A stretch of 44,967 bases of DNA, taken from the NCBI GenBank assembly GCA_009921245.1, contig RFXW01000002.1, forward strand, positions 1 to 44,967, in the 5' to 3' direction. Numbering within the stretch: position 1 is the first letter of the stretch; each line of letters opens with the position of its first letter. Below, piece by piece: positions 8,316 through 31,180 of the stretch. The notes under the pieces were generated by a model. It had not been told where the DNA came from. It was given only the letters and a program-made list of their open reading frames with translations, and ran no database searches. The translations under genes were made by a program, and so were the position numbers. This DNA comes from Candidatus Fonsibacter lacus (lineage in GTDB: Bacteria > Pseudomonadota > Gammaproteobacteria > Burkholderiales > Burkholderiaceae_C).

Positions 8316-9816
8316 ATGGAACTGACGCTTTGGACGTATGAAGGCCCCCCGCACGTAGGGGCCATGCGTGTGGCCACCGCCATGCGGGATGTGCACTACG
8401 TGCTGCATGCGCCGCAAGGCGATACCTACGCCGATTTGTTGTTCACCATGATTGAGCGTTTGCCGCGCCGCCCACCGGTGACGTACACCACCTTTCAGGC
8501 GCGTGATTTGGGCAGCGACACGGCGCAGTTGTTTAAAGATGCGGTGCGCGACGCGCACGCGCGCTTTGCACCCAAGGCCATGCTGGTAGGGGCCTCGTGC
8601 ACCGCCGAATTGATTCAAGACGACCCGGGTGGCTTGGCGCAGGCGCTGCAGCTGCCGATTCCTGTGGTGCCGCTGGAGCTGCCCGCGTACCAGCGCAAAG
8701 AAAACTGGGGTGCGGCCGAAACGCTGTACCGCATGGTGCGCGCCATGGCCGAGAACGTAAGCGTGGATCGCGCCAGTGTGCCCAAGGCCACCTGCAATTT
8801 GCTGGGCCCCATGGCGCTTGGGTTTCGGCACCGCGACGACGTGAAAGAAATTACCGCGCTGTTGCAGCGCATGGGTGTGCAAGTGCAAACGGTGGCGCCA
8901 TGGGAGGCCACGCCCGAGGACTTGGCGCGCTTGCCGCACGCGAACTTTAACGTGGTGATGTACCCCGAGTTGGCCGGTACCACCGCGCAGTGGCTGTGGC
9001 GACGCTTTGGCCAGCCGTTTACCCGCACCGTGCCCATTGGGCGTGGGGCCACCGCCGACTTTGTGCGCGAGGTGGCGGGCTTGGCCGAGGTTGACCCCGA
9101 ACCGGTGCTGCAGGGTTTGGCCGAACGCGCGCGCTGGTACGCGGCGTCGGTGGACAGCACCTACCTAACCGGCAAGCGCGTGTTTGTGTTTGGCGATGCC
9201 ACGCACGCCGTGGCCGCGGCGCGGGTGGCCAAAGAAGAAATGGGCTTTGAGGTGGTGGGCCTGGGCACCTACAGCCGTGAGCAAGCGCGTGAGGTGCGCG
9301 AGGCGGCCTCGCGCCTGGGGTTGCAGGCGTTGATCACCGACGATTACTTGCAAGTTGAAGCCGCCATTGCTGAACTTCAGCCCGAGCTGGTGTTGGGCAC
9401 GCAAATGGAGCGGCATATTGCCAAGCGCCTGGGTATGCCGTGTGCGGTGATTTCGGCGCCGGTGCATGTGCAAGATTTTCCGGCACGCTACGCGCCGCAA
9501 ATGGGCCCAGAAGGCGCCAACGTGTTGTTTGACACCTGGGTTCACCCCCTGATGATGGGCTTGGAAGAGCACCTGATTGGGATGTTCCGAGGTGACCACG
9601 AATTTCACGAAGACGCCGCCCCCTCGCACCTGGGCCACGGCACGCGTGCCGCCCCCGCGCCGGAGGTGAGCCCCGCCGAGGGTGGCTTGTGGGGCGACGA
9701 CGCCGAGCGCGAACTGCGCAAGGTGCCATTTTTTGTGCGCGGCAAAGCCAGGCGCAACACCGAACGTTTTGCCCGTGAGCATGGGCTTAGTCAAATCACC
9801 GTCGACACACTTTACG

Positions 9817-9842
<26 letters not shown>
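8316..9842 (+). CDS. bchB: Dark-operative protochlorophyllide reductase subunit B
   Basis: [23 protein letters not shown]..., [14 protein letters not shown], and conserved C-terminal domain. Confidence 0.97.
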
Positions 9843-14432
<4,590 letters not shown>

Positions 14433-23917: not shown

Positions 23918-25254
23918 CCATGCGTGGCCTGGCCGTACAGGGCGCCGCCCGAGGCCGCAAAGCGCTGGTGAAACGTCACCGGGGTGCTGCGCAGCATGTG
24001 GTGGGGTTGCGGCTGCCAGCGCAGGCCGCAGCGCTGTAGCAAGCGCATGGTATGGGTTTCGCATTGGTGCCAGTCCTCCTCTTGCCAGTCGCTGCTGTCG
24101 CCACGCGCCGGCGCGTTCACCAAAACCAGCATGCGCTCGGCCTGTTCAGCGGCGGGGTCGCGTCCCACGCCACGATCTTGTGCACACAGGTAAACCGTGG
24201 GTTTGGGCGGCAGCCGCCCGGCGCCAAATATGGCATCGAACTCGCTGGCGTAGTCGTCGTCAAAAAACACATTGTGTCGGTCCATGGCCACGCCGGCTGT
24301 GGCGGTGTGCACCGCCCACGTGACCGCCGACAGTGACCGAGGCGGCGGCGTGGCCGCCACCGCGCCTTGCACTGCCTCGCCCAGCAGGCGCTCGCGCAGT
24401 GCGTTGGGGTCGCCGTTAAACACCACCGCGTCGGCGCGCAGATGGCTGCCGTCTTGCAAAATCACGCCACTCACACGGCCTGCGCTCAGCTCAATACGCT
24501 CTACCGCTGTGCCGCAGCGCAGCTCGGCCCCTTGCGATTGGGCCAAAGTGGCCAATGCCTGCGCCAGTGCCCCCATGCCGCCTTGCACCGCCCACACGCC
24601 TTGCATCTCCACGTCGGCAATCAGCATCAGCGTGGCTGGCGCGTGCCACGGCGACGAGCCGCAGTAGGTCGCGTAGCGGCCAAAGAGTTGCTGCAATTTG
24701 GGGTGCTGCAGTTGGCGTTGCAAGCTGCTCATGAGGCTGCGCATCGGGCCGATGCGGGTGAGGGTGCTCAAGCCTTGCCAGCCCAGCGCTTGGGTGAGCT
24801 GCGCCATGCTGGGCGCCGGTGCCCGAATGTAAGGTTCTTCCAGTGCTTGATACACCTGGGTTGCGGTGCGGCAAAAGGCGGCAAAGCGCCGACCCTCGGC
24901 GGCGCCGGCAAAGCGGGCCACCGCGTCTTGGCTGGCCTGGCGGTCGGCAAACAAATCGAGCGCGCTGCCATCGCTCCAAAAGTGGCGCGCCAACACCGCC
25001 AGCGGCTCCAGGGTGACGGCATTGTCCAGTCGTTGCCCGCAGCGTGCAAACAAACCGTCAAACACCCAGCGCATGGTCATTACGGTGGGGCCGGCATCAA
25101 TGGCCGCGCCATCCACTTCAAGCGTGCGCATTTTGCCGCCCACGGCGGCGGCGCTTTCGCACAACGTGACGCGCATGCCTTGGTGGGCAAGCTCGGCGGC
25201 ACAGGCCAAGCCCGCCACACCGGCACCCACCACCACCACGTGTGGCTCAGGCAT
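23716..25254 (-). CDS. crtD: Methoxyneurosporene dehydrogenase (hydroxyneurosporene desaturase)
   Basis: CrtI-family: HVVVVGAGVAGLACAAELAHQGMRVTLCESAAAVGGKM; YLAGGSVHPGPGVPMAALSGHQAA. Alternative start 25263. Confidence 0.92.
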   Translation of the reverse strand: MPEPHVVVVGAGVAGLACAAELAHQGMRVTLCESAAAVGGKMRTLEVDGAAIDAGPTVMTMRWVFDGLFARCGQRLDNAVTLEPLAVLARHFWSDGSALDLFADRQASQDAVARFAGAAEGRRFAAFCRTATQVYQALEEPYIRAPAPSMAQLTQALGWQGLSTLTRIGPMRSLMSSLQRQLQHPKLQQLFGRYATYCGSSPWHAPATLMLIADVEMQGVWAVQGGMGALAQALATLAQSQGAELRCGTAVERIELSAGRVSGVILQDGSHLRADAVVFNGDPNALRERLLGEAVQGAVAATPPPRSLSAVTWAVHTATAGVAMDRHNVFFDDDYASEFDAIFGAGRLPPKPTVYLCAQDRGVGRDPAAEQAERMLVLVNAPARGDSSDWQEEDWHQCETHTMRLLQRCGLRWQPQPHHMLRSTPVTFHQRFAASGGALYGQATHGWMAAFARPGAQSMVPGLYLAGGSVHPGPGVPMAALSGHQAAVAVMANRALTKRFHPAATSGGTLTH

Positions 25255-26047
25255 GGGCCGCAATGGGGCCGCGCCACACCCCGCGCTGACTCAGCAGACT
25301 CAGCCGCACAAACAACGACTCAGAAAAGAAATCGTTTTTATAGGCCGCTGCTGCGGCCCGCTGGTGGGCGCCGTCTTGGGCGTAATCGGTCATGGCTTGG
25401 GCGTCACGCCACAAACTGAAGGTGCATTGGCGCACCAACGGTGCCTCGCCCAGCCCCATGGCCAATAAACAGCCGTCGCTGGCTTGCAAGTCTTCTTGCG
25501 CCGCCGGTGCATGACGCCAAAACGCCATGGCCTTGGCGGGGCGAATGCTGGCGCGCGTTAACACCGCCATGGGCATGGCCTGACGGGTGAGGGGGGCGGC
25601 GTAGCTGGGCGCAGCCGATGGCTGCCAAGCGTGTCCATCCCAACTGCCACGTGCCGATTGAATCGCCATGATGCCTGCCCACCACTGTCTGGCGCGCTGC
25701 TGATAGCCTTGCGCCAAGTCGCTCTCAAGCAGGGCTTGGGCTTGTCCTTGGTTGGGGACCATGGCCACCAAACCTTGGTGGGTGGCGCTGGGGCGCAGCG
25801 TAAAGCCGCCGTCGTGTCCGCTACCCATCACCTTGGCAAAGGTGGCGCCGGCTTGCTCGCGCCATACGCCGCCGCCGCGCATCAGGCGTCGCCAGCCCCA
25901 ACTTTGGTGATGCGGATGAAAATCCACCAACAACACCACGACCACCCCGGACAGGGCACCGTCGCCGGGCTCTGCGGGGGTGGGTCGTTCGGTCAAGTTA
26001 CTTGGCTCCGCTGGCCAGCGAGGGGTAGTCCTTAAGCATGGAAGCAC
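25247..26047 (-). CDS. crtA: Spheroidene monooxygenase
   Basis: GDGALSGVVVVLLVDFHP...AKVMGSGHDGGFTLRPSATHQGLVAM; SFSLWRDAQAMTDYA-like C-terminus; between pufC and crtD. Start ATG 26047 or GTG 25945. Confidence 0.85.
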   Translation of the reverse strand: MLPCLRTTPRWPAEPSNLTERPTPAEPGDGALSGVVVVLLVDFHPHHQSWGWRRLMRGGGVWREQAGATFAKVMGSGHDGGFTLRPSATHQGLVAMVPNQGQAQALLESDLAQGYQQRARQWWAGIMAIQSARGSWDGHAWQPSAAPSYAAPLTRQAMPMAVLTRASIRPAKAMAFWRHAPAAQEDLQASDGCLLAMGLGEAPLVRQCTFSLWRDAQAMTDYAQDGAHQRAAAAAYKNDFFSESLFVRLSLLSQRGVWRGPIAAHA

Positions 26048-27023
26048 CCAGCAGCGGCTTGTTCACGCCTTGGTGGCAGGTGGCGCAATTGACCTTGGCC
26101 AAGTCACCCAAAACGCCTTTGCGATTGGCGGGAAACACCTCGGTCAACGGCGTGATGTATTCGTTGTTCACATCACGTGCCATACGAATGCCGTGCCATG
26201 CCTTGACGCGTTGTGGGGGGACATCGTCCCAGCTGGAGAAGGCGCGCGAGTTGTGGCAGTAGGTGCAGTTCACCCCAAGCGAGGCCGACATGTGCACCAT
26301 CAAGCCGTAAGTCCACTCGGTTTGCTTGATCGAGCTGCGGTTACCCGTGGGCAAAGCCGTGGTGCCATTGACTCGAATGGCGTGGTCGCCCAGCAAAAAC
26401 GGTGTAAACGGATCGTTGGGCAATGAGGCCAGCTTGACACTGGCGGCCGGGCTGTTTTGTCCAGCCTTGTCGCCAATGAAGTTCGCGCCCTTGGGCTCGT
26501 GGTCGGCCTTAAACCACACCTCGGCCGGCACCGCTTGGCCGCGGTGGCAGGTGTAGCAGGTTACCCCGGTATCGGCGACGTGCGTTTTCCAGTTGGCGTT
26601 GATGTTTTGTGTCATTTCAATCATGCGCCGCGACACCACCTTGGTGTACTTGCTGTCGTCGGCCAAATTCGCCGGGTTATGACAGTAGTTGCAACCCTCT
26701 TGCGGTGCAATCCAGCTGGTAATGGCCACCATCAAGCGCGTGAATTGACCCACGCTTAAGTCACCAAGCACCTGCACGTTTTGATAAATCTCCGAGGCCT
26801 TGGGACCCGCCGCCGGTGCCATAGGCGTGGCCATGGGCACGGTGTTGGCTGCTGCGCGGTCGTCCAGCGTGCGCGGGTTCACCACCTGCACCATGCCGGT
26901 GCCGCGGTAGCCGCTTTGCTCGCTTTGCATGGGGGGGCGCTCGCACGCGGCCAGCGTCACCAACGAGGCCAACGCCGCGAGCTTGGCGCCCCGCGTTAAC
27001 CAAAGTTTGGATGAATGCAACAT
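25998..27023 (-). CDS. pufC: Tetrahaem reaction-centre cytochrome c subunit, lipoprotein
   Basis: Four CxxCH motifs (CNYCH, CYTCH, CTYCH, CATCH); lipobox-like LVTLAAC; QNVQVLGDLSVGQFTRLMVAITSWIAPQEGCNYCH. Confidence 0.97.
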   Translation of the reverse strand: MLHSSKLWLTRGAKLAALASLVTLAACERPPMQSEQSGYRGTGMVQVVNPRTLDDRAAANTVPMATPMAPAAGPKASEIYQNVQVLGDLSVGQFTRLMVAITSWIAPQEGCNYCHNPANLADDSKYTKVVSRRMIEMTQNINANWKTHVADTGVTCYTCHRGQAVPAEVWFKADHEPKGANFIGDKAGQNSPAASVKLASLPNDPFTPFLLGDHAIRVNGTTALPTGNRSSIKQTEWTYGLMVHMSASLGVNCTYCHNSRAFSSWDDVPPQRVKAWHGIRMARDVNNEYITPLTEVFPANRKGVLGDLAKVNCATCHQGVNKPLLGASMLKDYPSLASGAK

Positions 27024-28019: not shown

Positions 28020-28859
28020 TTAGCTCAAAGGCCATTGCGACCAAATGGGCAGGTTCAGCCACCAGCTCCACCACTCGGGCCAGCCCAAGCTCCAAAACGG
28101 ACCGCTGATGACGATACAAAGCGCGCTAAAGAGCACCGCTGCCAAAGCCAAGAACAGGCCCAAGCGGTGAATCCCCAACGTGCCGATGGAATAACCAATG
28201 AAGTCACGGAAGAACGTGTCCTCGTGCTCAGGTGTTTTCACTTCAGTCCCTGGCGCTGGGTTGGTGGCCGACAAAATCAGCGAACCGTGCAGCGACAGCG
28301 CAAACACCGTGGCAAAGAAAAAACTTACCGCCAGCATGTGGGCCGGGTTGTAGTGAAAGTGCAGGTACTGGTAGCCCACGTTGGAGACCCAGTCGAGGTG
28401 GCTAAAAATGCCGTAAGGAAAGCCGTGCCCCCAGGCACCCATCAGCACCGGTCGCACCACCACCAGCGTGACGTAGGCCAAAATGGCCACGCCAAACGCA
28501 AACGGCACGTGGTATCCCATGCCGAGCTTGCGGCAGATTTCTACCTCACGCAGCAGCCACGAGCCAAACGCGCCGATGGCGCACACCGTGATCAGCTGCC
28601 ACAAGCCGCCTTCCATAAGCGGTGCCAGCGCCAAGCCATACGATAAATCGGGCGGCGCGATATTGATTTGCCACAGGTTCCAGGTTGGCCCCTGCGAGGC
28701 GCCCCACAAAATCAGTGCGGTGCCTAAAAACGTAAAAAATGCCGTGGTGACCCCAAAAAATCCAACATAAAACGGGCCAACCCAAAAGTCAAACAGGTCC
28801 CCGCCCAACAGCGTGCCACCTCGCACCCGGTATTTCTTTTCAAAGCTGAGCATGGCCAT
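28020..28859 (-). CDS. pufL: Photosynthetic reaction centre L subunit
   Basis: [55 protein letters not shown]. Confidence 0.98.
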
Positions 28860-28952: not shown

Positions 28953-29153
28953 TTAAGCCTTGCGGGCCGGAGTGACCGCGGGCAACGGGCTGTACTGCGC
29001 CGATGCTGACGCGGCCGCTTTCGGGCCGTCGAGCCAATTGAACTTGTTGGTGCTCAGCAAGATGAGATGAATCATCGCTGCCAGACCGAACAGGAAGATT
29101 CCCTGCACAACCATGGCTCTGAGCGGGTCGTAAAGACGCCAGATTCTCCACAT
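28953..29153 (-). CDS. pufA: Light-harvesting LH1 alpha subunit
   Basis: [44 protein letters not shown]...; SD aggag upstream. Confidence 0.96.
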
Positions 29154-29164
29154 AGTGGTTTCTC

Positions 29165-29389
29165 CTAAATGATGTGGGACATGAAGGTATAAACCGCTGC
29201 CTTTACGCCGCCCAACATACCGTTGGCATGTTCGGCGCCAGGTAGCCAGTCTCGCCAGTGCATGCCGGCAACTTGACCGAGCAATGCAACCGACAGCACC
29301 AGCACAAAGCAGGGCGCAAAAATTAACCACGAAGCAAGCTTGTCGTTTGCACGTGGGGCCTTATGCGTAACCAAAGACGTAGCGGGCAT
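29165..29389 (-). CDS. 74-aa single-TM protein of unknown function encoded between pufB and pufA
   Basis: [83 protein letters not shown] 6 nt before ATG; 29 nt after pufB and 11 nt before pufA. Confidence 0.85.
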
Positions 29390-29418: not shown

Positions 29419-29562
29419 TTAGAACCAGGGCCGCCAAGCCCAGACCAGCAGGTGCGCGATCACGGCAACAGCCGTAAACGCCACGGTCCCCTGTATCCAG
29501 TATTGGTGGAACTCCTGAGCCTCATCGTCGGTCAGGCCGGAAATCGAAGTCCGAGTTGACAT
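29419..29562 (-). CDS. pufB: Light-harvesting LH1 beta subunit
   Basis: [56 protein letters not shown]. Confidence 0.97.
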
Positions 29563-29597
29563 ACGAACGCTCCTTCTCAAATGGCCTTGCGGCCGAT

Positions 29598-29682
29598 GCT
29601 GCGCACGGCCCGCGCAGCGTGGGCAGTTCTGGCCGAGCACCAGAACGTGGGGTTGGGCCGCCGCGCGCGTTGTCGCGCGGCG
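29598..29682 (-). other. Three consecutive stem-loops in the bchZ-pufB spacer
   Basis: Perfect stems: GCTGCGC/GCGCAGC (29598-29618), GTTCTGG/CCAGAAC (29626-29646), CGCCGCGCG/CGCGCGGCG (29659-29682). Confidence 0.65.
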
Positions 29683-29710
29683 TGCACCACAATGAAAGAG
29701 GTCAGGGCGG

Positions 29711-31180
29711 TCACGCGGGCTCTCCCAGTCCCAGCGTATGACCGGCTTCATCTACGTGATTGGCCAGCACCGCCTCGGTGCCTTGCGCGCGCGCACGTTG
29801 TTCGGCGTCGTCGCGCAGCCGCTTGGCGGTAGAAATTTGCACCAGCACCGGCTGGTTGGCCACCAGTCGCGCCAACAAGGCTTGTGCCGCTTGGTCCCAT
29901 GCCAAGGGCGCTTGCGCATCGGCGCGTGCCGGGGTGGCTTGGGCCTGGGCGTCCATGCTGGTGCCCAGTGGCAAGATATGGAACAGCGCATCAAACAACG
30001 CGTTGCACACTTCTTGCAGCACATAGGTGGCGCCGGCGTAGCCCATAAATGGGGTGCCGGTGGCGCGCCGAATAATGGCGCCTGGAAACGAGGCCGGAAT
30101 AAACGTGGCGCGCATGGCGCCACCTTGCGCGGCTTCGGCCAGGTACATGCGTTCGTTGTAGCTGCCAAACAAAATCAATGGGGTTTGCTTATGCACCAGT
30201 TCGCGCACTTGAGCGTTGTCGGTTTTGGCGCCGGCGTGGCGCGACACCGCAAAGCGGCACGGCAAACCCAAGTCGTCTTGCAGCAAGGCGCGTAAGCCTC
30301 GGGTGTAGGTGTCGCTGGCGACCACCGCAAAACTGGCGGTGGCAAAAAAATCTTGCGTAACCGAGCGCCACAAATCCCACAAGGGCTTGAGCGTGGTGTG
30401 GCGTTCGCGTTCAATGAATGGCTCGGCGTCGAGTTCGAGCAACTCGGCGAGTTTGCGCAAAAAAGCCGTGGTGTTGTGCAAGCCCATGGGGGCTTGCAGG
30501 TAGGGCCTATCCAAGGCCTCACACAGCAGCCGACCGAATTCACGGTACATGCAAATGTTGACGTCGGCTTGGCTGAGTTGCGGGATGTCTTCGAGGTGGC
30601 TACCCAGCGGAAACACCATGTTGATTTCTGCGCCCAAGCCTTCTACCAAGCGGCAGATCTCAGCCACATCCGAGGCGCTGTTGAACACGCCGTAGCTCGG
30701 TCCAATGATGTTCACCCGTGGCTTGTCGCCGGGTTGGCGCACGCGCGGGCTTGGCTTTTTTTCACCGTATTGCTGCCACAGCCACAACAACGCGCGGTTG
30801 GCGCATTGCCATTGGTCTTCGTCAATGGTGCGCGGCAAAAAGCGCATCAGGCCTGTGCCTTCTGGGGTTACGCCGCCACCAATCATTTCGGCAATTGAGC
30901 CGGTTACCACCACCGCCGGTAGGTCGGGGTCCAACGTGCCGTGGGCGCGCTTCATGGCGCCTTCGGTGCCTTCACGGCCCAGTTCTTCTTCGGCCAAACC
31001 CGTCACCACAATCGGCAGCTCGTGTGGGGGCAGACCGTCGGTGTAGTGCAGCACCGAGGTAACGGGTAGGTTTTCGCAACCCACCGGGCCGTCGATCACC
31101 ACTTGCAATCCTTTGACCGCGGTAAACACATACACCGCGCCCCAGTAGCCGCCGGCTCGGTCGTGATCGAGCACCAGCAT
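29711..31180 (-). CDS. bchZ: Chlorophyllide a reductase subunit Z
   Basis: [68 protein letters not shown]. Confidence 0.97.

Follow-up and report, generated by a model that had tools for sequence, protein, structure and literature searches.

A predicted LH1 beta homologue without the bacteriochlorophyll-ligating histidine is encoded between pufB and pufA in phototrophic Burkholderiales

The stretch of DNA analysed here (the window; 44,967 nucleotides of contig RFXW01000002.1, assembly GCA_009921245.1, Candidatus Fonsibacter lacus) carries a betaproteobacterial photosynthesis gene cluster. Its minus strand reads, in order, bchY, bchZ, pufB, a small ORF that we call ORF74, pufA, pufL, pufM, pufC and crtA; the identities of pufM and pufC were confirmed together with those marked below. 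We use the term pufQ slot for the place between bchZ and pufB. The features relevant to this study are:

29711-31180, minus strand: bchZ, identity confirmed
29565-29700 (to 29714 as folded), minus strand: structured leader between bchZ and pufB, several hairpins (z -3.8), with no pufQ-slot gene in it
29419-29562, minus strand: pufB, encoding the short form of LH1 beta (no tail, His retained), above the cut-off of NCBIfam NF040862
29397-29403, minus strand: strong Shine-Dalgarno sequence AAGGAGG of ORF74, 7 nt before the ATG, read from the sequence
29165-29389, minus strand: ORF74 (ORF2 of Rvi. gelatinosus), ATG start, 74 aa, putative His-less LH1 beta paralogue
29259-29327, minus strand: predicted transmembrane helix of ORF74, residues ~21-43
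29273-29275, minus strand: codon of ORF74 Gln39, in the column of the bacteriochlorophyll-ligating His of LH1 beta
29168-29257, minus strand: C-terminal part of ORF74 (residues 45-74; WRxWLPGAE ... [11 protein letters not shown]), conserved and homologous to the long LH1 beta tail
28953-29153, minus strand: pufA (LH1 alpha), above the cut-off of NCBIfam NF040861
28898-28939, minus strand: strong RNA hairpin in the pufA-pufL interval, from folding
28020-28859, minus strand: pufL, identity confirmed

ORF74 starts 29 nt past the pufB stop (29419) and ends 11 nt before the pufA ATG (29153). Its frame, start codon, length and both spacings agree with the first-pass annotation, which had also recognized the AAGGAGG but placed it 6 nt, instead of 7 nt, before the ATG. 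The 74-residue product has one hydrophobic helix. Its tail had been described as conserved and amphipathic; the conservation is evident, but the amphipathic character finds weak support, with a mean hydrophobic moment of 0.18 (0.15 for the window copy) compared with 0.11 +/- 0.05 for shuffled sequences. The Pfam and NCBIfam models gave no match to the window protein. An AlphaFold model contains helices at residues 14-47 and 59-73; we gave it no structural weight because its mean pLDDT is 66 and a Foldseek search of it against the PDB returned no match.

The gene itself has been reported before. The copy in Rvi. gelatinosus is ORF2 of Nagashima 1994, as cited in PMC12817894, where ORF2 is described as lacking the alpha His and is rejected as the origin of Gemmatimonas pufA2. 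The copy in Roseateles depolymerans is ORF74 (RD2015_RS05155), which the major 1-kb puf transcript carries alongside pufB and pufA; the pufB, ORF74 and pufA loci top the list of genes decreased in a sigma-factor mutant of Roseateles (PMC10037100). Both correspond to the window ORF in identity and position, with no difference in kind, and we read Rvi. gelatinosus homologues directly (loci L014 and L021). Neither PMC12817894 nor PMC10037100 gives a family or function; these belong to the open-access literature, and an assignment in a subscription journal could be missed. The earlier label 'uncharacterised' is thus right for the function of the gene but not for its existence. What is new here is the family assignment: a gene described in 1994, and to this day carried as an ORF without known function, now has a family identity.

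A pattern scan of GTDB genomes found 234 relatives, 80 of which were kept; after adding those that came from searches of whole genomes, we read 118 loci. The homologues come from records that include Rubrivivax, Hydrogenophaga, Limnohabitans, Ideonella and Polynucleobacter by name. The synteny survey proposed in the first-pass annotation shows the order pufB-ORF-pufA in nearly all of them, the exceptions being a few in which a neighbour was not recognized or assembled. Across the 118 loci, the protein is 69-79 aa long, the gap to pufB is 17-54 nt and the gap to pufA is 5-22 nt; an ATG start is found in 117. Eight alignment columns are invariant among 76 sequences. ORF74 is under purifying selection, with dN/dS of 0.00-0.61 in 51 independent close pairs. 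The lack of conservation and dN/dS near 1 on which the earlier proposal was to be abandoned were not observed, and a non-functional ORF is refuted by this protein-coding selection.

We searched 399 Burkholderiales genomes both with a profile built from nine homologues and for reaction-centre genes. ORF74 is present in 43 of the 48 genomes with reaction-centre genes. In two of the remaining five (G183 and G336), the contig stops before the ORF74 place; the other three (G105, G224 and G255), all of one genus, have reaction-centre genes and a different small gene upstream of pufB. Apart from one genome (G310), in which ORF74 lies near a contig end and reaction-centre genes were not found, no genome without reaction-centre genes had ORF74 in this search. 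ORF74 is therefore nearly universal among the phototrophic Burkholderiales sampled. No relatives were found in viral contigs.

Profile comparisons identify ORF74 as a homologue of the LH1 beta polypeptide. A search of the PDB with the single sequence found LH1 beta chains at E 5e-4; the ORF74 profile matched LH1 beta at E 6.8e-16 over columns 13-72, and 40 of its 41 matches are LH beta chains. In hhalign, the profile scored 99.1% to long alphaproteobacterial LH1 beta and 97.0% to short beta, with reversed-sequence controls below 1%. An LH1 alpha origin is ruled out (4.9%). Single ORF74 members fall below the Pfam (PF00556) and NCBIfam cut-offs for LH1 beta. ORF74 shares with the long-form alphaproteobacterial LH1 beta (PufB, PF00556) the helix register, the Ala of AxxxH (Ala35, invariant), WRxW and the C-terminal tail. 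However, the bacteriochlorophyll-ligating His of beta is replaced in every ORF74 member: among 110 distinct sequences, this column holds Gln in 78, Thr in 13, Ser in 12, Ala in 4, Glu in 3 and His in none. In pufB of the same loci, the His is always kept and the tail is never present (96/96). Since pufB has the pigment site and ORF74 has the tail, the two genes split the features of a long beta chain between them. As judged from sequence, ORF74 is thus an LH1 beta homologue that lacks the pigment ligand, and we infer that it arose by duplication of an LH1 beta gene. Its helix and N-terminus are far more variable than those of pufB. These data suggest that pigment-less proteins have evolved from within the antenna gene family.

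LH1-gamma, PufX and protein-W resemble ORF74 in being small LH1 accessory polypeptides without pigment ligands. The ORF74 profile matched no chain of any of the three in the PDB, and no gamma chain appeared at E up to 10. Membership in PufX was rejected, with no match in Pfam, NCBIfam or the PDB and with ORF74 outside the PufX place after pufM. The comparisons with PufX and LH1-gamma suggested earlier thus gave no sequence support for membership in either. The gamma-like polypeptide of Rhodopila globiformis has 22 aa, is reversed in the membrane and is encoded far from puf (PMC9640540).

Rhodobacter has pufQ directly upstream of pufB. In many Alphaproteobacteria, we found a second small protein directly upstream of pufB, either with the ORF74 profile or by inspection beside pufB. 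These pufQ-slot proteins, encoded between bchZ and pufB, occur in Alphaproteobacteria and in some Gammaproteobacteria. In hhalign they scored 98.1% to ORF74 over 64 columns, 96.4% to long beta and 88.9% to 31 Rhodobacteraceae PufQ sequences. Like ORF74, they have lost the His and lie in the puf operon, and the two appear as alternatives to each other. Unlike ORF74, they are encoded upstream of pufB, have Arg at the His column (28/30) and a basic C-terminal flank, and have mostly lost WLPGAE. The basic flank is also found in PufQ and is absent in ORF74, so the membrane topology of ORF74 may differ from that of PufQ and the slot proteins. In a tree of ORF74, pufB and alphaproteobacterial beta sequences, ORF74 forms one group (100/100); the sequences are short and the tree unrooted, so it cannot tell a single His loss common to ORF74 and the slot proteins from separate losses. 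By score, 113 of the 118 ORF74 members are nearer to long LH1 beta than to the slot proteins. Two gammaproteobacterial genomes (G833 and G896; loci L212 and L219) have slot-like proteins for which the next 900 nt downstream yielded no pufB.

The Burkholderiales genomes examined carry either ORF74 or a slot gene, never both in our sample. The three genomes without ORF74 all carry a slot protein. No slot gene was seen in the 118 ORF74 loci, and a search of 17 ORF74 carriers with the slot profile revealed no separate slot gene: the matches were ORF74 or pufB, plus one chance match elsewhere, and two carriers had no match. This mutual exclusion tracks lineages and may therefore rest on few events. 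The three genomes (loci L197, L198 and L201) also have an alphaproteobacterial-type pufA and no crtA match, suggesting that their photosynthesis cluster came from another lineage. Both ORF74 and a slot protein are absent from Sphingomonadaceae-like phototrophs (PMC3176799), which indicates that the function is not universal.

Like ORF74, PufQ of Rhodobacteraceae (PF05398) is encoded in the puf operon and is a small protein with a single helix and a conserved C-terminus; the two are linked through the slot proteins. Their direct match is weak (hhalign 64%), and PF05398 does not reach ORF74: it did not match the window protein, hit one of 76 ORF74 members at E 0.015 and found nothing over its cut-off among 29 Burkholderiales genomes. 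The operon position also differs, ORF74 lying between pufB and pufA and not in the PufQ place between bchZ and pufB. The earlier suggestion of a relocated PufQ-like protein is therefore partly supported, by the profile homology to, and mutual exclusion with, the slot proteins, but not by the PufQ model itself. We infer that ORF74 is orthologous to the slot proteins, i.e. their Burkholderiales counterpart, and it is probably also distantly related to PufQ, which regulates pigment supply.

The RNA around the gene is also informative. A hairpin better than -20 kcal/mol is predicted within 50 nt after pufA in 99 of 99 loci (median -30), and the pufB/ORF/pufA junctions of the same loci have no hairpin of that strength. 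In the known puf operon, such a hairpin delimits a stable transcript segment that codes for the LH1 polypeptides. ORF74 would thus sit inside the hairpin-bounded LH1 segment and be co-transcribed with pufB and pufA in the window, in agreement with the Roseateles transcript (PMC10037100). An LH1 beta homologue encoded in this segment fits the earlier proposal of an LH1-associated protein that would be made in balance with LH1 beta and alpha. The structure of the leader upstream of pufB is not consistently above that of shuffled sequences in relatives (median z -1.3; 23/66 below -2). Positions 29577-29714 of the window may be the counterpart of the ORF1 that has been described for Rvi. gelatinosus upstream of its pufB.

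We tentatively favour, at a little under an even chance, the reading that ORF74 is an LH1 beta paralogue without pigment that serves, in the manner of PufQ, the assembly of LH1 or the supply of pigment. In Rhodobacter, PufQ binds ferrochelatase and directs porphyrin into bacteriochlorophyll, and LH does not reach normal levels without it (PMC5725709). In the proposed mechanism, a descendant of LH1 beta would have lost the bacteriochlorophyll-ligating His, leaving an antenna-like single-helix protein without pigment. Co-transcribed with LH1 beta and alpha, it would stay with the nascent LH1 polypeptides or with pigment enzymes and couple bacteriochlorophyll supply to LH1 assembly, as PufQ does. 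The conserved C-terminal tail could contact a conserved partner, such as ferrochelatase, a bacteriochlorophyll enzyme or an assembly factor. ORF74 would then fill in Burkholderiales the slot that PufQ fills in Rhodobacter. The homology to the pufQ-slot proteins is the reason to prefer this PufQ-like role over a PufX-like ring opener. Against it, a pure regulator would have no use for the WRxWLPGAE face that ORF74 has kept. Conceivably, though we would not quite expect it to hold, PufQ itself, which regulates the branch point between haem and bacteriochlorophyll, descends from an LH beta polypeptide minus its pigment ligand, ORF74 is a Burkholderiales branch of that family, and many purple bacteria thought to be without PufQ have an overlooked relative. 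Our results suggest that PufQ-type function may extend well beyond Rhodobacteraceae, with ORF74 and the slot proteins as concrete candidates for it.

A close rival, which we regard as somewhat doubtful, is that ORF74 is a permanent non-pigmented LH1 subunit, placed within the ring or next to it at one or several beta-like positions, that either provides a quinone channel by interrupting or spacing the ring, as PufX and protein-W do, or stabilizes it, as LH1-gamma does. The nearest profile match is LH1 beta, and with WRxW and the beta-like tail ORF74 preserves the beta face more fully than the slot proteins do. Its coding place between beta and alpha in the hairpin-bounded segment suggests supply at the level of LH1 (PMC10037100), and such a subunit could have been missed, since the solved structures include no close relatives of this group's LH1 chains. 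The gene crtA serves spheroidene-type carotenoids, which fill ring pores. It was found in 35 of 44 ORF74 genomes vs none of the three without ORF74, a difference confounded by ancestry; however, nine ORF74 genomes do without it. The homology to and mutual exclusion with the slot proteins also argue against a ring subunit, as do a helix and N-terminus that vary much more than those of pufB, unlike a tightly packed subunit.

An unlikely alternative to the PufQ-like role is a transient LH1 assembly factor functionally unrelated to PufQ, which would pair with LH1 alpha at insertion until the pigmented beta displaces it. The shared operon, the ligand-less beta-like helix and the order beta-ORF-alpha are consistent with it, but it overlaps the PufQ-like role and leaves the replacement by slot proteins unexplained. 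That the ORF is leader-like, coupling pufB to pufA translation through a functionless peptide, is suggested by its shortness and its tight operon with Shine-Dalgarno sites but is hardly credible given the dN/dS values in the 51 pairs, the eight invariant residues and the nearly constant length.

Several minor observations were made. In two genomes of the window's own genus (loci L008 and L009), pufA is strongly diverged, with YNINSW replacing FNWLDG, and ORF74 is also strongly diverged, with the tail VDTVISQLC; these possibly represent a different LH1 type. Within positions 25247-27023 of the window (minus strand), pufC encodes a lipoprotein-type cytochrome with LAAC near its N-terminus, and the longest crtA frame overlaps the end of pufC by 50 nt. 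The gene bchH (magnesium chelatase H; 9682-13522, plus strand) is split over two frames, 9682-11475 covering model positions 1-531 and 11333-13522 covering positions 535-1243. This is probably a frameshift or an assembly error; otherwise the gene is broken.
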